Below the pieces are notes generated by a model that saw only the letters and a list, made by a program, of their open reading frames with translations, did no database searches and was not told where the DNA came from. A stretch of 64,000 nucleotides of DNA, taken from Thermoplasmatota archaeon (GTDB lineage Archaea > Thermoplasmatota > Thermoplasmata > Thermoplasmatales > Thermoplasmataceae). The stretch covers positions 1 to 64,000 of the forward strand of contig JAMDCA010000020.1 in NCBI GenBank assembly GCA_023489435.1, read 5' to 3'. A program made the position numbers and the translations under genes. The first letter of the stretch is position 1, and every line of letters starts with the position of its first letter. Shown in pieces: positions 541 to 10,833 of this stretch.

Positions 541-625
541 TGCGAGGGATGGGATTCGAACCCACGAACTCCTACGAGACAGAATCTTAAGTCCTGCACA
601 GTTGGCCAGGCTTTGTTACCCTCGC
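541..625 (-). tRNA. tRNA-Leu (anticodon TAA)
   Basis: Minus strand reads GCGAGGGTAACAAAGCCTGGCCAACTGTGCAGGACTTAAGATTCTGTCTCGTAGGAGTTCGTGGGTTCGAATCCCATCCCTCGCA. Acceptor GCGAGGG/CCCTCGC pairs, long variable arm, GGTTCGAATCC T-arm, anticodon TAA. Confidence 0.93.
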
Positions 626-680
626 AATTAATCGGTTTATACTCCGGGAATATATTAAAAGTGCTGAAATTCGATGATTA
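600..680. repeat. Direct repeat copy R1: 5' half of tRNA-Leu plus its leader/promoter
   Basis: agttggccaggctttg... aatcggtttat... gaatatatt; same order of blocks as 2000-2040 and 2932-3010. Confidence 0.75.
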
Positions 681-979
681 ACAAGAAAGTATCCTGTCTT
701 GTGAAATGAATGTGGGAGAATACATGGTTAAATTAGCTTGAGTGATTTTCGATTAATAGTTTTAAATAATCGCAAATAACCTCTGGATACGAATTTGTAT
801 GGAAACTTCGCAATAGTCTGTCGAGCCTTATCAAATAAAAGGCTAAATTTCAGTTTGCAGTCATTACAAATATGTTAGATGGTCTCTGATAAGTGTGACA
901 TGACACCTCCCACATTGGCAAATGCTAGATGGGAGCCATACGCAAAAAGTAATTATGGCTCCAAATCTTCGATATTATT

Positions 980-1936
980 ATGACTTTGTATGGAGACATT
1001 GAGCCTTATGAAAGAGGAATGCTTGATGTTGGGGATGAAAACTCAATCTATTGGGAGGTTTCAGGCAATCCAAATGGTAAAGCTGCTTTAGTCTTGCACG
1101 GAGGTCCCGGATCAGGGTCGAGTCCCTGGTGGAGGAGGCTCTTTAATCCAACCAAGTACAAAATTATTCTATTCGATCAAAGGGGTTGTGGTAAAAGCAC
1201 ACCCAGTACTTCCAATCCAGGGTATGATTTCTCAAAAAACACTACGCATCATCTAATCAGTGATATTGAGGCCTTGCGTAAGCATCTGAATGTGGATAAA
1301 TGGTTAATACTCGGGGGCTCTTGGGGTTGCACTCTCGGCCTAGCATATTCGAAATCATATCCAGAAACAGTGACACAAATGATATTCTTTGGAGTAACAA
1401 CTGGCAGGCACTCTGAATTTGACTGGACATTTCGAGGTGGTAACAGGATATTTTTCCCAGAACAATGGGACCACTTGATGAAGGCCCTGCCTTCAGACAG
1501 GCCGGAAAGTGATATTCTCGATTTGCTTTATGAAGTATTGAATAAAGGAAATCCTTCGAACATCGCCTCCCTTGCGAGATCCCTGTGTCTATGGGAATCA
1601 ACAACGGCTGATTGGCCACCAGTTTACACCCTTCAGAAAAGGTTTGAGGATTCATCTTACGCGATTACATTTGCAAGGCTGGGAACACATTATGCAAAAC
1701 ACTACGGTTGGTTGAAAGATGGTGAACTCCTCAACGAAGGGGGATACTTGGATAATATTCAAGGCATATTGATAAACGGGAGATATGATTTCCAGGCACC
1801 ACTTGAAAATGCCTGGATACTTCACACAAAGTGGAGATGTAGTGAACTAATTGTGGTAGATGACTCAGGGCATTCTCCAAGTGCAACAATTGAAAATGAG
1901 ATAGTTAAGGCAACTGACAAATTTTCAACTTTATGA
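980..1936 (+). CDS. pip: Proline iminopeptidase (alpha/beta hydrolase)
   Basis: HGGPGSGSSPWWRRLFNP, FDQRGCGKSTP, GGSWGCTLGLAYSKSYP nucleophile elbow, SGHSPS C-terminal His. Confidence 0.9.
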   Translation: MTLYGDIEPYERGMLDVGDENSIYWEVSGNPNGKAALVLHGGPGSGSSPWWRRLFNPTKYKIILFDQRGCGKSTPSTSNPGYDFSKNTTHHLISDIEALRKHLNVDKWLILGGSWGCTLGLAYSKSYPETVTQMIFFGVTTGRHSEFDWTFRGGNRIFFPEQWDHLMKALPSDRPESDILDLLYEVLNKGNPSNIASLARSLCLWESTTADWPPVYTLQKRFEDSSYAITFARLGTHYAKHYGWLKDGELLNEGGYLDNIQGILINGRYDFQAPLENAWILHTKWRCSELIVVDDSGHSPSATIENEIVKATDKFSTL

Positions 1937-1999
1937 TCCAGCTCGCATCCTGAATTTGTTGCGCACCACAGTGAGGGCATTTTTCTCTCTAAGAGGAAA

Positions 2000-2040
2000 A
2001 GTTGGCCAGGCTTTGCTACAGTCACAATTAATCCGTTGAT
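2000..2040. repeat. Direct repeat copy R2: tRNA-Leu 5'-half fragment
   Basis: agttggccaggctttg (2000-2015) is identical to 600-615; similarity continues through acaattaatccgttgat. Confidence 0.75.
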
Positions 2041-2199
2041 ATATAAATAATGAATGATTATTCATAGCAAAAGAATATCACATTCTCTTATGGGCGAAAT
2101 GCGCATCAAATCGCTAGCAGAATACATTTAACGCCAATCCAAAGGGTTTAAAAGGGAAACAATTAATAGCTAACCTTGCTTGGCTAAGGGTGAACTAGT

Positions 2200-2460
2200 T
2201 TGACTTTGAAATTGAAAGTTGGAAAGAAGGGCTACATCATTCTTCCTAAAGCATTAAGAGAAGCCGTTGGAATCGAAGAGGGTGATGATCTCACAGTAAG
2301 CTTAAGTGATGCGATAATTCTTACACCCGCGAAGAAATTTGACAGAGCAGCATTTGAAAAGATGGCCAAACAACACAAGGAATCTATACTTTCAGTAAAG
2401 GGGGCTAAATATCCTGAACCGGGTGAAGCCAAGGAATACTCGTTGGAGGATGAGTTTTGA
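2200..2460 (+). CDS. AbrB/MazE-fold antitoxin (SpoVT/AbrB domain), TTG start
   Basis: LKVGKKGYIILPKALREAVGIEEGDDLTVSLSDAIILTP; overlaps downstream PIN gene by 4 nt. Confidence 0.85.
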   Translation: MTLKLKVGKKGYIILPKALREAVGIEEGDDLTVSLSDAIILTPAKKFDRAAFEKMAKQHKESILSVKGAKYPEPGEAKEYSLEDEF

Positions 2461-2855
2461 CCAGCGTATTCATAGACACAAATTTCTTTATTTATATGAA
2501 TACACCAGTCAAGAACCTTGACAGTTTTATTGATTACTATGAGAAGGAACTTTCCAACAACAGGACATTCACCAATCTGATAGTCCTGGATGAGCTTATT
2601 TACATATCCGGTAATAAATATTCTATCCCGACAGAGGTGACTCTAGAATTTATTGACTCCATGATACTCCCATTCACATCTATTCTTCCACTTGAAGAAG
2701 GCGACTATCTGATTATGAAGGACATCCTGAAGTATTGTCGTAAACCAAGCGATGCACTGATCGCTTCCTCCATGAAGCGTGCCTCCATCACAGAGCTTAT
2801 TAGTGAAGACAAAGACTTTGACAGAGTTCCTGGAATCAACAGGAAATGGTTGTAA
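2457..2855 (+). CDS. PIN-domain (VapC-like) toxin
   Basis: FIDTNFFIY N-terminal Asp, DELIYIS, KPSDALIASSMKR, ELISEDKDFDRV. Confidence 0.87.
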   Translation: MTSVFIDTNFFIYMNTPVKNLDSFIDYYEKELSNNRTFTNLIVLDELIYISGNKYSIPTEVTLEFIDSMILPFTSILPLEEGDYLIMKDILKYCRKPSDALIASSMKRASITELISEDKDFDRVPGINRKWL

Positions 2856-2931
2856 AACTGAGATATTTTTCCTGTTCCAACGTTTCTCAAACCATTGAAT
2901 AATGTTGGCGGGGCAGTCATTCATTAGTATT

Positions 2932-3010
2932 GCGCAGTTAGCCAGGATTTTGTCCCTGAAAATCAATCGGTTTATGCTTAGAGAATATATTCAAAGGGCT
3001 AAAATTTGAG
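2932..3010. repeat. Direct repeat copy R3: tRNA-Leu 5'-half fragment plus leader
   Basis: gcgcagttagccagg... aatcggtttat... gaatatattcaaagggctaaaatttga parallels 596-672 of R1. Confidence 0.72.
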
Positions 3011-3214
3011 TAAGGGGGGGAGTGTCCGTTTTTGAGGATCGAATGGATGCGAATATCGGAATGACGAAACATGAAAAATTTTCTTGTAATATGCTTATAT
3101 GCTATATTGCAAGTTAAGCAGAGAATTTTTAAGGAGATGTGTGAATAGTCAATCCCTCTGCTTTTCCAAATGATATGCCTTGCACTTTTGCCTGGAGGGC
3201 AAGAATTATAAAAT

Positions 3215-4024
3215 CTATGGGCTGAAACAGCACAAGGGGTTATCGAAGTACGCCTCTGACATCTGAATTAAAACACGATCCCTTGTAAGTATTGCGGACA
3301 TTCCATTGCTGGAATTCATACCAGAGACAGTCAAGAGTCGCCCATCAGCCAACAGCAACCATGTATCGCAACATTGGGGTGACAATACAGACAAGTTGAA
3401 ATTCCTGCTACTATCTTCGGTTAGTTTATCAAATCCATTTTGGGGCATTGCTATTTTTATTTTGGCTCCCCGCAGTTTTGCTTCAAGAAGTTGTTCACGG
3501 ATAGTGGTGAACTTGCTGAAATCTGGCAGGATAATCATTATTTCATGCTTTGCCGAAAGAAGCATTTCCTTCATTTTCGAGATTATGTTCTTTGTTCCTT
3601 TCACTACATACGCTATTTCGATTCCATTATCCTCCGTGTGGTTCCCATTCATTTTCGTCCACACTTCCTGAAGTTGAGCCTCAATATTTTCACCGATCTT
3701 GAGACCATTTTCATACCTGTTTCTCAAAACCGACTTCAGTTCTGCAATAAATGGTGCGGGGGCAGTAGCCCGGTAGGTTTTGGGCACACCATACTGCACC
3801 TCAATCATGTTCAATTTTAGTGCATTTTCTATTACACCGTAAACCTTCGAGTCCGGGATACCAGTGATTTCGCACAACCTCGATGCAGACACCCCCGGTT
3901 CCAAAAGCAAAGCAAGGTAGATTCTCCCCTCATTCAGGGGAATTTTTACTTCCAGCATCTGCGGAAGGATATTCTGAACCAGTTTACGGTAACTAATGAC
4001 CTCTAATTCATCCGTTTTTTTCAC
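3215..4024 (-). CDS. TrmB-family transcriptional regulator
   Basis: N-terminal wHTH (NEGRIYLALLLEPGVSASRLCEITGIPDSKVYGVIENALKLNMIEV) and TrmB-like C-terminal effector domain; divergent from the methyltransferase. Confidence 0.8.
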   Translation of the reverse strand: MKKTDELEVISYRKLVQNILPQMLEVKIPLNEGRIYLALLLEPGVSASRLCEITGIPDSKVYGVIENALKLNMIEVQYGVPKTYRATAPAPFIAELKSVLRNRYENGLKIGENIEAQLQEVWTKMNGNHTEDNGIEIAYVVKGTKNIISKMKEMLLSAKHEIMIILPDFSKFTTIREQLLEAKLRGAKIKIAMPQNGFDKLTEDSSRNFNLSVLSPQCCDTWLLLADGRLLTVSGMNSSNGMSAILTRDRVLIQMSEAYFDNPLCCFSP

Positions 4025-4102
4025 TTTAACTCATCTCTACTTATAGTATTAGTAAGAGAATCAATATATATATAATTACTACTACTTTGAGTAAGTGGTA
4101 CT

Positions 4103-4909
4103 ATGACAGAGAATCTAAAACAAGCCGTCATAAAAAGATATTCAGAAAGGATAAAGGCAAAATCAAGCTGTTGTGGCGAGTCAGCTGGCTGTTCTTCAGG
4201 ATCAGGTTCCCAAAAACAGGTGGAAGCATCTGAAAGCAGTTGCTGCGCGGGCTCCTCTTGCACGTCAGACGTGCAATATGGTGAGTTGAAAGACAAACTG
4301 GGGGATGTCAGCGGGCAGTCGTTTGGGTGTGGTAACCCTATAGGCCAATCCTCAGTTATGATTGGGGATACTGTAGTTGATTTGGGATCTGGTGCTGGAC
4401 TTGACTGTATAAGAGCGGTTTCCAGGGTTGGTGCTACTGGTAAGGTTGTGGGTGTAGACATGTCTGAAGAGATGATTGCCAAAGCTACTCAAAATGTAAG
4501 AAAAATGGGATTAGATGAACAGGTTTCTTTTGTTAAAGGAGATATTGAAGATATTCCCCTAACAGACAATTTTGCTACACTTGTAATCAGCAATTGCGTC
4601 CTTGCACTGGCGCCAAACAAGCAAAAAGTATTCAACGAGGTTTACAGGATTCTAAAACCGGGGGGTAGGTTCATAATCTCAGATGTAGTGAGTGCAGAAA
4701 ACATTCCACAAGAGATGAAGGATGATGTAGAATTGTTTTCAAACTGCATTTCAGGGGCGTCTCAGGTGGATGAATACTATAAGGCTATTCTGGCTGCAGG
4801 TTTTACCAATGTTGAAGAGCTGGAAAGACAAAACTACGGTTCTCTTGATGCCGGTGGAGTGGGCATAAGTTTGTTCAGCATAACCGTCATGGGGTACAAG
4901 TACACGTAG
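4103..4909 (+). CDS. arsM: Arsenite methyltransferase (ArsM-like SAM methyltransferase)
   Basis: VVDLGSGAGLDCIRA SAM motif, SFGCGNP, ISNCVLAL, Cys-rich N-terminus (SSCCGESAGC...SSCCAGSSC). Confidence 0.85.
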   Translation: MTENLKQAVIKRYSERIKAKSSCCGESAGCSSGSGSQKQVEASESSCCAGSSCTSDVQYGELKDKLGDVSGQSFGCGNPIGQSSVMIGDTVVDLGSGAGLDCIRAVSRVGATGKVVGVDMSEEMIAKATQNVRKMGLDEQVSFVKGDIEDIPLTDNFATLVISNCVLALAPNKQKVFNEVYRILKPGGRFIISDVVSAENIPQEMKDDVELFSNCISGASQVDEYYKAILAAGFTNVEELERQNYGSLDAGGVGISLFSITVMGYKYT

Positions 4910-4964
4910 TCTCAGCCTATTGTCGGAACGAGAAATGCAACAAAAATAAAGGTGTAAATAATGT

Positions 4965-5849
4965 TTATTTGTAAACTCCAACAGAGTGGCTCTCTGGCAG
5001 GAAAGTGTAAAGCTTTTGCATTTTTTCATCAAAGGTCAGGGTGTGGCTTCCATATTCTGTTCGAATTTCTTGTACCTTTTCAAGAGTTTTTCCGTTGAAA
5101 ACCTGCACTACACCAGGTTCACCAATGCTGCAATAAACAAGGTCTTGCTTCCTGTTATACCAGAGGACATCCGGAGCCCCTTCCAATTTAGCCTTTTGGC
5201 CAATTTTCATTTCCTTTAAATCGATGGTAACTAGAGTGGCGTCGTCACATGCAACAAAAGCGGTCTTGCCTTCAATAACAAGTCCATGGGGGCCCTTTTG
5301 ATCAACGTCGAAGAATCTGGTCTTTTTGAAGTCCTTCGCGGATATAAATTCCAGACCTGGAGGGTCCATTATGTTGACAATGTACTCGTCACTTTCTTTC
5401 CTGTAGGTGCTCCATCTTGGTCTTCCGCTGAGGTGAACAGAAGCAATTATTTCACCAGTTTTCTGGTTGTGAAATCTTGCCTGGTTGTCACCGACATCAG
5501 CAGTCATGAGAATCTCCCTTGCACCGTCAACTGCTAATCCATTGGGTTTCTTCCCGGTTTTAAATTTCCTGACTGCTTCCAGGGAAACAGGGTCTATAGC
5601 AAGAATGTGCCCTTCAGCTCTTGAGGCTGCAAAGATTTTTTTCGTAACCGGATCAAACACAACCCCGCTTCCGCCAGCACAGTCAGGTATGGTTTTTATC
5701 CACTTGTCTTCTTTGCCGTCAAGCACTTCAACAGTTCCGGAACTGGTATGTGCCACAAAGACTCTGCCGGACGTCTGATCAACATCGGCATGGTCGAACT
5801 CGCATTCATTCTCCTCTGGAAGTTCCTTTCTTATTTTAAAATTCAGCAA
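4965..5849 (-). CDS. YncE-like beta-propeller protein
   Basis: Repeated blade motifs such as GTVEVLDGKEDKWIKTIP, KIFAASRAEGHILAIDP, KPNGLAVDGAREILMTADVGDNQ. Confidence 0.7.
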   Translation of the reverse strand: MLNFKIRKELPEENECEFDHADVDQTSGRVFVAHTSSGTVEVLDGKEDKWIKTIPDCAGGSGVVFDPVTKKIFAASRAEGHILAIDPVSLEAVRKFKTGKKPNGLAVDGAREILMTADVGDNQARFHNQKTGEIIASVHLSGRPRWSTYRKESDEYIVNIMDPPGLEFISAKDFKKTRFFDVDQKGPHGLVIEGKTAFVACDDATLVTIDLKEMKIGQKAKLEGAPDVLWYNRKQDLVYCSIGEPGVVQVFNGKTLEKVQEIRTEYGSHTLTFDEKMQKLYTFLPESHSVGVYK

Positions 5850-5880
5850 CAGTATCTTTTCCCTTCAAGTTAACGAGATT

Positions 5881-6348
5881 TCACTTCTTGGTATGTTCGA
5901 GTTTTGCCTTTCCTTCCATTTTACCTTTGACATAAGCGTACATGGCATCGTAGAAAGGAAACTGTAATTTCATGTTCTCGTGGTCATCCTCTGCAATTTC
6001 TCTGAATCCAAGGGCTGCAGCTTCCAGTCCTGCTGACTCAGGAGGGGCATCTGGCATGTTTGCATCAGCTCCCCTTACAATCCTGGCAAATTCAAGAAGG
6101 GCTGCGTCTTTGAGGTTATATTTCTTTATGACGGCATCAAAGCTCACGTATTCTTTTCCATTTTCTTCATAATGGAACAATTCTGCCCCAGGTGTGTCAA
6201 ATGCAATGGCATTTTCTTTCTTAGCTGTTTCTAATACTTTTTCTTTCGGCACAAAAAGAAATACCGGATCTTTATCCACAAATCTTGAGATTACCCAAGG
6301 GCAAGCAATTCTGTCAACCTTGGCCTTTTCTCTAGTTACCCACTTCAT
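5881..6348 (-). CDS. ChrB-like (chromate resistance protein C-terminal domain)
   Basis: KWVTREKAKVDRIACPWVISRFVDKDPVFLFVP ... ARIVRGADANMPDAPPESAGLEAAALGF. Start moved to MKW; the ORF track begins at 6366. Confidence 0.8.
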   Translation of the reverse strand: MKWVTREKAKVDRIACPWVISRFVDKDPVFLFVPKEKVLETAKKENAIAFDTPGAELFHYEENGKEYVSFDAVIKKYNLKDAALLEFARIVRGADANMPDAPPESAGLEAAALGFREIAEDDHENMKLQFPFYDAMYAYVKGKMEGKAKLEHTKK

Positions 6349-6609
6349 CAGAATCACTGCCAACATTTTTCTTTTTAATAAAATACTTTGTGTATTCCGG
6401 AAACACTACAAAATTCTACAGGAAAAGTTAAGCATGAAAGCGGTTGCTCTGTGAATCTAATTTCAAAATCTGTGGCCCGGTGGAAAACTAAGCTATCGCG
6501 TACTTATAATTATGAGGTTTTCACTTATTTATCCATCAGATGGAGATTCGCAACTCCACAATGGGCACGTTTCACGGATAGGGTTGCACTCCCGGGGAGC
6601 ATTGATGCT

Positions 6610-7152
6610 ATGTCTGCAGAGCAGCAAGGGAGAAAGAGTGGGTTGCATAACGCTTTATTCTATGGGATATCGCTAATGCTCTCGCTCATAATCATCGTGG
6701 TTTCAACCGCAGTTTTCCTGGTATTTATATATCTGGAAGGCAGTGTGCCAGATAGTTTCTTCCTCCTCTATCTTGGGGTTTTGGCAACCAATCTGGCGGT
6801 CTCCGTGGTTTCCACCAGGCAGCTCATAGCGTTGATCCCGGCTCTATCTCTTCTGAATAAAACTTCTGAAGTCGAATATCCTCCCGGAAAGAAGAGTGGA
6901 ACCGCAATCTATAGCCCGGCCCCCATAGCTTACAATGATGAGAGATATTTCACAGAGGCTGAAATAGAAATCATAGAACTCCTCAGGAAAAACAATAACA
7001 GATTGCTGCAGAGCAGGCTAGTTTCATCTGTTGGAGCCTCCAAGGCGACCGTATCCAGAGTTATCTCTTCTCTGGAAAGCAAAGGGGTAATAGTAAAGCT
7101 GAGAAAGGGCGTAACCAACGAGATAATTCTTTCAGAAACCAATTTCAAATAG
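6610..7152 (+). CDS. Membrane-anchored winged-HTH transcriptional regulator
   Basis: Two TM segments (SLMLSLIIIVVSTAVFLVFIYL; FFLLYLGVLATNLAVSVV) then EIEIIELLRKNNNRLLQSRLVSSVGASKATVSRVISSLESKGVIVK. ORF track starts at 6388; ATG 6610 (MSAEQQ) preferred. Confidence 0.72.
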   Translation: MSAEQQGRKSGLHNALFYGISLMLSLIIIVVSTAVFLVFIYLEGSVPDSFFLLYLGVLATNLAVSVVSTRQLIALIPALSLLNKTSEVEYPPGKKSGTAIYSPAPIAYNDERYFTEAEIEIIELLRKNNNRLLQSRLVSSVGASKATVSRVISSLESKGVIVKLRKGVTNEIILSETNFK

Positions 7153-7156
7153 TTTC

Positions 7157-7172
7157 CTGAAACATGTTTCAG
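7157..7172. promoter_or_regulatory. Perfect 16-bp palindrome CTGAAACATGTTTCAG, candidate operator
   Basis: Palindrome between the wHTH stop (7152) and the SHOCT start (7210); further half-site TGTTTCAG at 7188-7195. Confidence 0.6.
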
Positions 7173-7209
7173 CCATTGGTTAAGAACTGTTTCAGCATTT
7201 ATTGGAAAC

Positions 7210-7569
7210 ATGGAGAAAAAAGCAGAGAATCTGGTCTGGGTTCTTGTAGGGCTTGTCGCCGTAATTGCAGCAGTTGCAATTATCACCTCTGTTTTGTTTG
7301 GTGGCAGATACACAAATGGAACATTCGGCCCATACGGAATGATGGGGGGATATTATGGCATGGGTTTGATAATGCCCATCATCGGGGTAATATCAGTTAT
7401 TTTTGTAATTGTATTTGTATTTTTCATACTGGATGCTCTCAGAGTGTCAGATCGGCATTTTGACAGTGCTTACAGCTTCAGGGCTGAGGAAATTGCCAGA
7501 GAGAGATTTGCAAAAGGGGAAATTTCAGAGCAGGAATACTATGCAATGTTGGAAAAGTTAAGGAAATAG
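7210..7569 (+). CDS. Membrane protein with C-terminal SHOCT domain
   Basis: Two TM segments then AEEIARERFAKGEISEQEYYAMLEKLRK (SHOCT signature). Confidence 0.78.
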   Translation: MEKKAENLVWVLVGLVAVIAAVAIITSVLFGGRYTNGTFGPYGMMGGYYGMGLIMPIIGVISVIFVIVFVFFILDALRVSDRHFDSAYSFRAEEIARERFAKGEISEQEYYAMLEKLRK

Positions 7570-7577
7570 GTGTTTAG

Positions 7578-8156
7578 ATGAACAAACACAGGTTGTTTGG
7601 GTTAATTTCCGTGGCTGGACTAGCACTGGTTGTAATAATTTCTGCATCATACATCTGGGAATTCTCAGGTTATGCCAACGCACAGAATACTGGATTCATG
7701 ACAGGTGCAGAACTGTCTTCTCTCAATGCAAGTCCACCCGGCATATACGTTTCGCATTCCAATTCAACAATTTACCTTAACAATTCGGTGGATCTGCCGG
7801 TAATGATGGGGCCAATGGATGCCCCGAGCATGTACAGTTTTGAAATCCTCGGGATGTTTAATCCCACTTTAACAGTAATGCAGGGAACCACCCTAGATTT
7901 CACCGTGATTAATGTGGATACAGACTCTTACCACAATTTTGTGATGAGCCACTCAGGGCCGCCCTACTACATGGGTAGCATGATGCAAAGTTCTGGCTTG
8001 ATGAATAACATGAATTTCCTGCCACCTGTACATTCAGGCAGTTATGCCTATTCCAACCTGAGTTATAGCTTCTCCACACCTGGAACCTACTGGTATCTTT
8101 GCACTTATCCGGGGCATGCAGCCGAGGGAATGTATGGAAAAATCGTTGTAGTTTGA
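7578..8156 (+). CDS. Secreted/membrane-anchored cupredoxin (sulfocyanin/rusticyanin-like blue copper protein)
   Basis: N-terminal TM; SYHNFVMS ... WYLCTYPGHAAEGMYGKIVVV gives the His...Cys-His-Met type 1 Cu ligand pattern. Confidence 0.82.
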   Translation: MNKHRLFGLISVAGLALVVIISASYIWEFSGYANAQNTGFMTGAELSSLNASPPGIYVSHSNSTIYLNNSVDLPVMMGPMDAPSMYSFEILGMFNPTLTVMQGTTLDFTVINVDTDSYHNFVMSHSGPPYYMGSMMQSSGLMNNMNFLPPVHSGSYAYSNLSYSFSTPGTYWYLCTYPGHAAEGMYGKIVVV

Positions 8157-8543
8157 ACCTCCAACCATATTTTTCTAAATATTATTTGTAAAAAAACACT
8201 AATTTGAGTCCAAACCCGGTCGCTTAAACGGGAAATTTCTCAACCATTTCTCGTGTCATAATCAATGAACGCATATAGCGGCCAACCTTACTTCATGCCA
8301 ACGCAGCCATTTAGACAGCATTATTTTGAAAAGATTCGAACTAAAACTTCCTCTCTTTTACTTCCTCCTAAAAAGCCAGTTTCCATATTATGGCTGTTCA
8401 GTTGACACCGCCAGCCCTGAAAGAAGGTGAGCTAAATCTTCGGATTCACCCCTCGAAATTTATGAGAAAATGCCTTTCGGGTCTCCAAAATCCTTATTTT
8501 TTTCTGCCAAATAATTTAAACCTTATTTGGACTATGTGGTTCA

Positions 8544-8819
8544 ATGATGCCGGGACAAATGCCTCCACAAGGGGACATTATAGGATTTGAAACTGAAGAG
8601 GAACCGAGATGGGTCACCGTGAAGCTGGAGGATGGATCGGTCATCCAGATAAAGATGGAAATAGTTGCAATTATGAAAGGCGGAAATGACCAGAACACTG
8701 GATTACCGATTTATATGGTCCAGGCAACTAATATCATAAGAATGGTCAAAGTTCCGAAGGAACTGATTAAAAAAGGATCTCCTCCAGATGATGGGAAAGG
8801 GGCTAACCTATACAGGTGA
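8544..8819 (+). CDS. Conserved hypothetical protein
   Basis: MMPGQMPPQGDIIGFETEEEPRWVTVKLEDGSVIQIKMEIVAIMKGGND; good coding character and small basic C-terminus. Confidence 0.65.
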   Translation: MMPGQMPPQGDIIGFETEEEPRWVTVKLEDGSVIQIKMEIVAIMKGGNDQNTGLPIYMVQATNIIRMVKVPKELIKKGSPPDDGKGANLYR

Positions 8820-8997: not shown

Positions 8998-9390
8998 GTG
9001 GATGAGAAAGACTGGGCCATAATTGACATTCTGAGGCGCAATGCCAGAACCTCTAATTCAGACATAGGCAGGGAGCTTAATGTCTCAGAAGGCACCGTAA
9101 GAAAGAGAATTCAGAAGCTTCTTGACGAAGGTGCCATTAAGAAATTCACAGTTGTCCTGAGAAATGAGGGCGTGGAAGGGATGGTCCTCATCCGAACCGA
9201 CCCCAAGAGGGCAAAGGAATTGCTTGATTTCATAACAGACCGGTTTGACGAAGTTTATGAGTTCTCTGGTAGGTTTGACCTTGCAATACGTGTAAATTGC
9301 AAATCCCTGGAAGAGCTCAACAAGATTGTTGACGGGCTCAGGGAAATGGATGGGATCCGAAACACTGATACTATAATACGCCTGCATTGA
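8998..9390 (+). CDS. Lrp/AsnC-family transcriptional regulator (GTG start)
   Basis: WAIIDILRRNARTSNSDIGRELNVSEGTVRKRIQKLLDEGAIKKFTV plus RAM-type domain. Confidence 0.9.
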   Translation: MDEKDWAIIDILRRNARTSNSDIGRELNVSEGTVRKRIQKLLDEGAIKKFTVVLRNEGVEGMVLIRTDPKRAKELLDFITDRFDEVYEFSGRFDLAIRVNCKSLEELNKIVDGLREMDGIRNTDTIIRLH

Positions 9391-9450: not shown

Positions 9451-9720
9451 ATGGCAGAGGAAAACGTCATTTTCGTCGGAAAAAAACCAACAATGAACTA
9501 CGTACTAGCTGTTGTAACCCAGTTCAACAACAATGTTGACAGGATTACTATAAAAGCCCGTGGCAAAGCAATAAGCAAAGCCGTCGACATAGCAGAGATA
9601 ACACGTCATAAGTTCATTCAAAACGCAAAATACGAGAACATTAAGGTAGAAACAGAAAAACTCCAGGGAGAAAGGGGAGAGTCGAACGTTTCTTCCATAG
9701 AAATAACCCTCATAAGATGA
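9451..9720 (+). CDS. albA: DNA/RNA-binding chromatin protein Alba
   Basis: VIFVGKKPTMNYVLAVVTQFN...ITIKARGKAISKAVDIAEITRHKF. Confidence 0.95.
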   Translation: MAEENVIFVGKKPTMNYVLAVVTQFNNNVDRITIKARGKAISKAVDIAEITRHKFIQNAKYENIKVETEKLQGERGESNVSSIEITLIR

Positions 9721-9849: not shown

Positions 9850-10833
9850 ATGAGAGACTTCCTGGATTGGAGCATCAGTTTGCATGGGAAGGTGGACGAG
9901 GTCAATGAGAGATTGCTTCTCGCGATCCGCACCGACCAGGAAGAATTATACAGGATGTCAAAGTACACCATTGAGGCTGGAGGAAAGAGATTCAGGCCCC
10001 TTCTCACCATTCTTGCATATGAGATAAGCAGTGAAGGCCACTACTCCAATATACTAGACCTTGCAGCCGGGTACGAACTTATACACACTGCAAGCCTCAT
10101 TCACGATGATATTATAGACAATGCTGCAACCAGGAGAGGAAGACCGACTCTCAACAACGTGGATGGCGTTGCAAATGCAATTGTTGTGGGCGATTACCTG
10201 TTTGCAAAGGCATATGAACTGGGGTCCAGGTATGGCACAGTAGTGTCAAAAATTATGGCAGATGCATCAAGCAGGCTCGCTGAAGGCCAGACACTGGAGG
10301 CTTTCAGCCTGGGAAATCTCGATCTGAGCGAAGAGACTTACCTGGAAATAATCAGCAACAAAACGGCGAGATTCTTCGAGGCATGCGCAATGGGTGCTAC
10401 CGTTGCTGCTGGAGCTGGAACGGCAATTTCCAATGCTCTGAGCAATTTTGCCTACAACCTGGGGATGGCTTTTCAGGTAACTGATGACATCCTGGACATA
10501 GTTGGCGATTCAAGTAAACTCGGTAAGCCTACATTCACGGACATAAGGCACAGTGCAATCACCCTGCCCCTTATACACACCCTGCGGAAGACAGATGCAA
10601 ATGGCAGGGATGAGCTTAAAAGAAAACTTCTGGAAGGGGAAAGCGGAGAGGTTGACATGAACCTTAAAAACCTCATGGTCGAGACCGGAGCAATCGATTA
10701 TTCATTTTCAGTTGCGAAAAGGTATTCTCAGATTGCCCTGGAATCCCTCAAGGACACTGGTAAGTCACCGGACCTTAATCTTCTAATGGAACTTGCCATG
10801 ATTGTCATTGAAAGAATAGAGGAACTCAGCTAA
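9850..10833 (+). CDS. Polyprenyl (geranylgeranyl/farnesyl) diphosphate synthase
   Basis: GGKRFRP, SLIHDDIIDNAATRRGRPT (first Asp-rich motif), AFQVTDDILDIVGD (second). Confidence 0.93.
   Translation: MRDFLDWSISLHGKVDEVNERLLLAIRTDQEELYRMSKYTIEAGGKRFRPLLTILAYEISSEGHYSNILDLAAGYELIHTASLIHDDIIDNAATRRGRPTLNNVDGVANAIVVGDYLFAKAYELGSRYGTVVSKIMADASSRLAEGQTLEAFSLGNLDLSEETYLEIISNKTARFFEACAMGATVAAGAGTAISNALSNFAYNLGMAFQVTDDILDIVGDSSKLGKPTFTDIRHSAITLPLIHTLRKTDANGRDELKRKLLEGESGEVDMNLKNLMVETGAIDYSFSVAKRYSQIALESLKDTGKSPDLNLLMELAMIVIERIEELS

Follow-up and report, generated by a model that had tools for sequence, protein, structure and literature searches.

What carries a piece of a tRNA gene, together with its leader, to the far end of a neighbouring gene module, and why should that piece be the 5' half? 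The question is raised by the window, by which we mean the whole 64,000-nucleotide stretch analysed here (contig JAMDCA010000020.1 of a Thermoplasmatota archaeon, from a draft assembly of 52 contigs that is 82% complete). An intact tRNA-Leu(UAA) gene, the integration target, lies on the reverse strand at 540-626 (ARAGORN). Its 5' part and leader constitute the reference copy R1 (596-675), which includes a TATA-like box, AATATATTA, at 649-657, about 27 bp upstream of tRNA nucleotide 1. Two displaced copies follow. R2 (2000-2041) carries the tRNA 5' part to nucleotide 27 with a short leader and forms the right end of a first cassette, and R3 (2931-3010) reaches about nucleotide 31, with a leader of about 50 bp, and forms the right end of a second. 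Both are oriented as direct repeats of R1, and fainter homology extends past R3 up to about position 3112.

R1 and R2 share 86% identity (600-641 aligned with 2000-2041; local score 54, maximum among 2000 shuffles 27), and R1 and R3 share about 78% (596-675 aligned with 2932-3010; score 69, null maximum 29 among 2000 shuffles). The corresponding BLAST E-values are 1.9e-7 for R2 and 1.1e-10 for R3. Aligned directly with one another, R2 and R3 are not significantly similar (score 20); each matches R1 instead. Scanning the window in tiles on both strands revealed no further copies above background, and in the whole assembly there are no leader-bearing copies other than R2 and R3, the remaining matches being limited to the tRNA part or short and weak.

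The cargo of the first cassette is a prolyl aminopeptidase gene (980-1936, forward strand; TIGR01249, E = 7.5e-86). The second carries an AbrB/MazE-type antitoxin (2200-2460, forward; PF04014, E = 7.9e-12) and a PIN-domain toxin (2457-2855, forward; PF01850, E = 8.8e-15). An earlier note on this DNA, made from the sequence alone, had described R2 and R3 as diverged direct copies of the tRNA-Leu 5' part plus leader and had named the enclosed genes as a proline iminopeptidase and an AbrB/PIN pair. Its gene calls agree with the domain matches, and its reading of the repeats holds, since the pairwise scores far exceed those of shuffled sequence (none of 2000 shuffles reached either) and the genome-wide search that it proposed for tRNA-Leu 5'-half fragments left R2 and R3 as the sole leader-bearing copies.

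The inserted DNA extends well beyond these two cassettes. The first conserved neighbour of the tRNA gene is an LSm protein gene (8544-8819, forward; tblastn), 7918 bp away, followed by genes for Lrp (8998-9387), Alba (9451-9717) and GGPPS (9850-10827; all by tblastn). Among 77 genomes of this family of acid-loving archaea, the distance from tRNA-Leu(UAA) to this LSm-Lrp-Alba-GGPPS block is only 63-386 bp in 33 loci, which thus represent empty sites, and 0.8-10.3 kb in 13 loci, namely the window and 12 others. One genus has sites of both kinds: that of G084 is empty (114 bp), those of G016 and G087 are filled. About 100 bp separate LSm from the outermost fragment of G003, a distance like that of an empty site. 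Together, the spacing in relatives and the outer fragment of G003 identify the entire stretch 627-8543 as inserted DNA, which goes beyond the earlier note, and mark the outer fragment as the old end of the tRNA gene. As in tRNA-associated elements generally, an intact tRNA stands at one end and a displaced direct fragment of the same tRNA at the other.

Beyond R3, Pfam searches of the island identified genes for a TrmB-type regulator, a methyltransferase, a beta-propeller protein, ChrB-C, HTH and cupredoxin-like proteins. These outer genes occupy 3215-8153, and beta-propeller and ChrB-like genes adjoin the site in G001 too. The methyltransferase is cysteine-rich and could have arsenite as a substrate.

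Cassette content and order vary among relatives. Homologues of the PIN toxin or of the AbrB-PIN pair (71-80% identity) are found beside tRNA-Leu(UAA) in six further genomes, and the aminopeptidase is found among the 77 genomes only in the window and in G002, where a broken copy occupies the same place. Across genomes the cargo at the site includes an MBL-like gene, a methyltransferase, a glyoxalase, a RelE/ParE-type toxin, Fic and MazEF, some of these names having been read from sequence without a Pfam search. In G002 the MBL-like gene is closer to the tRNA and a PIN remnant adjoins LSm; G001 and G013 have the reverse order, with AbrB-PIN closer to the tRNA. The same arrangement is present at tRNA-Leu(UAG), where four upstream fragments in G004 separate VapBC, MazEF with a methyltransferase, AbrB-PIN and a 7-kb cargo, and where G006, G013, G043, G003, G047 and G016 have one fragment each. 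No integrase was recognised in the window island, which therefore lacks the on-board tyrosine integrase of tRNA-targeting elements, nor in the relatives' cassettes when these were searched with phmmer using only the three PF00589 enzymes of the window's own genome (G000) as queries.

The comparison of this locus across relatives, which the earlier note had called for, thus yielded both empty sites (33 loci) and other cassettes with the same boundary, and the relatives' cassette genes accompany fragments rather than occurring without them. With cassette order variable and up to four fragments stacked at a site, the suggestion that small modules were captured serially at the 5' side of a tRNA gene is supported. 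The remark that no integrase is visible stands for the window, but related elements with the same attachment arm do carry integrases, of the PF16795 family, as described below.

The leaders carry a further signal. The window leader is related to the leaders of other occupied loci. Because the core promoter, to about -37, is alike in many genomes, scoring was restricted to the region beyond -38, where the leader exceeds the null in 6 of 13 filled loci versus 1 of 33 empty ones (Fisher p = 0.001); a rank test on the same scores gave a p of only 0.05. That the leader merely tracks phylogeny was rejected in part, on the evidence of G016, which has 89% of its first 75 leader bases in common with another genus and little in common with the empty G084 of its own genus. 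One empty tRNA-Leu(UAA) site (L125, in G067:C159) has a leader of the type otherwise typical of occupied sites, possibly the scar of an insertion followed by excision.

In a scan of the fetched loci, all 16 fragments of tRNA-Leu(UAA) and tRNA-Leu(UAG) are 5'-type and upstream, and no downstream fragments of these tRNAs were found. Most of them stop in the anticodon arm, twelve of the 16 at tRNA nucleotides 36-49. The Leu(UAG) edges fall at nucleotides 42-45 in seven of nine cases, thus including the anticodon loop, and the Leu(UAA) edges range from 27 to 49. Fragments of tRNA-Lys(CUU) and tRNA-Met in the same scan are 3'-type and downstream. In the fetched stretches of the complete genome G013, tRNA-Leu(CAG) is the only other tRNA with a copy, which is 3'-type.

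The junctions themselves are informative. A MazEF unit and about 218 bp beyond MazE are homologous in G004, G013 and G043, at tRNA-Leu(UAG), and in G021, at tRNA-Leu(UAA). The homology extends as far as the anticodon arm, where it gives way to the 5' half of whichever tRNA is present. Since one cassette end thus meets two tRNAs at the same structural point, the aligned MazEF junctions indicate site-specific recombination.

A candidate for the responsible enzyme is found in relatives. Contig G084:C5 encodes an intact 324-aa integrase whose N-terminus is RHH-like and which belongs to the SSV-type family PF16795 (E = 4.7e-42); a Leu(UAG) 5' half lies about 200 bp away. This half comprises nucleotides 1-45, is identical to a relative's gene and adjoins the conserved flank of that tRNA. 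The G084 element and the MazEF cassette match in their end sequences (score 56, against a null maximum of 21-27). The same arm of about 48 bp abuts the 3' half of tRNA-Lys(CUU) in G005, G068 and G004 and inside the G013 island, and it is present at UAA fragments of G003 and G021 as well (0 of 1000 shuffles). In G068 an element with a broken PF16795 integrase is bounded by an intact tRNA-Lys. A type IIG restriction-methylation gene of the G084 element has a counterpart (84%) on contig G067:C34, whose tRNA is Leu(UAA). The linkage of a PF16795 integrase to the same arm and 5' half is therefore a feature of relatives (G084:C5) and not of the window, where R2 shows no sign of the arm (p = 0.75) and R3 only a marginal one (p = 0.064); a search of the window assembly, which is 82% complete, revealed no PF16795 integrase. 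The PF00589 integrases of the window's own genome (XerA, one in tRNA-Glu and one of 464 aa near tRNA-Met) were considered as the enzyme and rejected, no link to the arm being found.

Several related observations were made alongside. The 464-aa PF00589 integrase lies on the window's contig outside the window (G000:C30, about 91.9-99.6 kb) near tRNA-Met(CAU), whose 3' end recurs 7.7 kb downstream, so that this stretch is a probable integrated element. Elsewhere in the same genome (L186:9358-10482) the reading frame of a 374-aa PF00589 integrase passes through tRNA-Glu(UUC). PF16795 integrases overlap or adjoin tRNA-Ala(UGC) 3' halves (nucleotides 28-72) in G004, G005 and G084 (L298-L301), and G005 has a separate RHH fragment that ends in att-derived residues, the pattern expected of a suicidal integrase. 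In G013 (L051:10468-10515 and following) the island at tRNA-Leu(UAA) contains the arm joined to a tRNA-Lys(CUU) 3' half, perhaps an unused attP; tRNA-Lys itself is absent from the vicinity. A 67-aa protein with no Pfam match (L188:1501-1701 in G013; L189, L191, L192, L200 and others) is encoded behind tRNA-Leu leaders and in elements at tRNA-Lys(CUU), at tRNA-Leu(UAG) and in the vicinity of tRNA-Val(GAC), and may serve the element family as an accessory or directionality factor. The tRNA 5' half, the leader and the 67-aa protein had no matches in viral contigs, plasmids or phages.

The fragments, the empty sites, the junctions and arm held in common and the integrase linkage in relatives are all established by sequence comparison. 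We consider it likely that small integrated elements stand in tandem at the 5' side of tRNA-Leu(UAA) in the window, joined by a tyrosine recombinase whose gene is elsewhere. A circular cassette would consist of cargo and a promoter-bearing copy of the tRNA 5' half, and the recombinase would join it to the chromosome within the anticodon arm. The 3' half of the resident tRNA would then be completed and driven by the 5' half and promoter of the cassette, and the old 5' half and promoter would be pushed outward, past the cargo. Repeated rounds would generate the order tRNA-cargo-fragment-cargo-fragment, represented in the window by the tRNA, the aminopeptidase, R2, AbrB-PIN and R3. As the cassettes have no integrase, the enzyme must act in trans, and its best candidate would be the PF16795 integrase of the related elements that share the cassette end. 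This element family also uses tRNA-Lys(CUU), in the usual 3' direction, and integration at Leu(UAG) would be flipped. We infer trans catalysis, circular intermediates and the same route for R2 and R3; because the arm has decayed in the window, it is homology that supports the mechanism there.

Ordinary homologous recombination between leader copies might instead circularise and re-insert the cassettes, with no dedicated integrase for the small units. R2, R3 and similar UAA fragments (those of G002, G004 and G005 and G013f1) stop at nucleotides 27-33, outside the anticodon loop and without the arm, which counts against the integrase mechanism and is as recombination between leaders would have it, as is the lack of a recognised integrase in any cassette. 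Leader copies in G013 are 94-98% identical over about 90-130 bp, which could reflect homologous recombination or gene conversion and suggests that homologous exchange acts on these repeats as well. However, the MazEF end and the 48-bp arm meet three different tRNAs at the anticodon arm with no leader in common, homologous recombination would not place one cassette end on both Lys 3' and Leu 5' halves, and detectable events in Thermococcus are cited as taking about 500 bp of identity (PMC5495485). It is therefore unlikely that homologous recombination is the principal route.

We regard as quite improbable a single ancient, large, integrase-bearing element at tRNA-Leu of which the present state would be the deleted and rearranged remains. 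In seven genomes AbrB-PIN is close to tRNA-Leu(UAA), perhaps through vertical inheritance, and the G084 element is indeed large and has its restriction-methylation gene in common with the tRNA-Leu(UAA) contig of G067. On the other hand, there are up to four fragments per site, cargo varies by genome, the order of AbrB-PIN and the MBL-like gene in G002 is the reverse of that in G001 and G013, and related MazEF units are found at two different tRNAs. A target duplication of the casposon type was discounted, the copies being 40-190 bp long. Finally, R2 is just 42 bp long and the likeness of R2 to R3 is not significant by itself, but the shuffles and the recurrence of the same structure at two tRNAs in several genera make it scarcely credible that R2 and R3 are chance or decayed tRNA-promoter duplications with no part in gene gain, and this reading was rejected.

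If site-specific integration by an enzyme acting in trans is the preferred reading, why is the 5' half duplicated? The anticodon arm of tRNA-Lys(CUU), ATGGACTCTTAATCCAT, and the opposite strand of that of tRNA-Leu(UAG), ATGGACCCTAAATCCAT, are identical at 15 of 17 positions. Among 87 other arms of G013 (44 tRNAs, both strands) the Leu(UAG) antisense arm tied for best match with that of Leu(CAG). Because of this resemblance, an enzyme that uses the Lys arm in the ordinary orientation would meet tRNA-Leu(UAG) back to front and duplicate its 5' half and promoter; the arm alignments suggest such an opposite-strand reading. The Leu(UAA) antisense arm matches the Lys arm poorly, with only TCTTAA in common, and Leu(UAA) may be a secondary target. 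In G013 (L370), a 3'-type copy of tRNA-Leu(CAG), identical over 52 bp, lies 2.3 kb downstream of the gene, although the antisense arm of this tRNA resembles Lys(CUU) too. We see about even chances for a wider reading, in which a single archaeal integrase family acts on a common pool of cassettes, largely toxin-antitoxin and with no integrase of their own, and moves them between tRNA genes of different amino acids, the switch from Lys 3' to Leu 5' halves stems from likeness to the antisense arm, and essential tRNA-Leu genes have come to depend on promoters of mobile DNA. If true, this would explain simply why, with some tRNA-integrating elements, the 5' half is duplicated and the tRNA promoter replaced, a rare orientation that PMC5495485, PMC8371274 and PMC6563490 leave unexplained.

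The earlier note had raised the possibility of an undescribed tRNA-targeting mechanism. This is too strong, as 5'-half integration with a replaced promoter is known (PMC8371274, PMC5495485): pTN3-like integrases target tRNA-Leu and integrate at the 5' half, with a minimal att of nucleotides 2-44, cutting the tRNA off from its promoter. The present site resembles these elements of Thermococcales in the tRNA-Leu target, in the att within a duplicated 5' half and in the separation of the original promoter, which is replaced. However, pTN3 is a full plasmid whose suicidal integrase, containing attP within its gene, is interrupted on integration, whereas here stacked cassettes of 1-3 kb have no integrase and the candidate G084 integrase is intact beside att. 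CalSub-E1, for which integration in the 5' region of a tRNA gene is reported (PMC6563490), is likewise similar in recombining with that region, but it is a single large element with no stacked cassettes, and PMC6563490 offers no opposite-strand explanation. An element cited there (Zhao and Williams 2002) is said, in that citation, to reverse the usual target orientation.

With SSV-type elements the site shares the PF16795 integrase family and a crossover near the anticodon loop. In those elements the usual copy is the 3' half, as at tRNA-Ala(UGC) and tRNA-Lys(CUU) in this archaeal family, whereas the tRNA-Leu cassettes have the 5' half. Three things are new: the stacks of mostly toxin-antitoxin cassettes, devoid of an integrase, at two tRNA-Leu genes; the use of a single arm with Lys 3' as well as Leu 5' halves; and the explanation by the opposite strand. 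Integrons capture small genes serially at one site, with a recombination site beside each gene end. The cassettes described here are integron-like in their working only and do not belong to the integrons, for they have neither attC nor IntI and their site is half of a tRNA gene. Islander (PMC4383910) takes an intact tRNA and a displaced fragment as the ends of an island and allows upstream 5' fragments, but it demands an on-board integrase and would filter these cassettes out. For want of such an integrase, standard island finders miss what appears to be an integron-like stock of small toxin-antitoxin cassettes.
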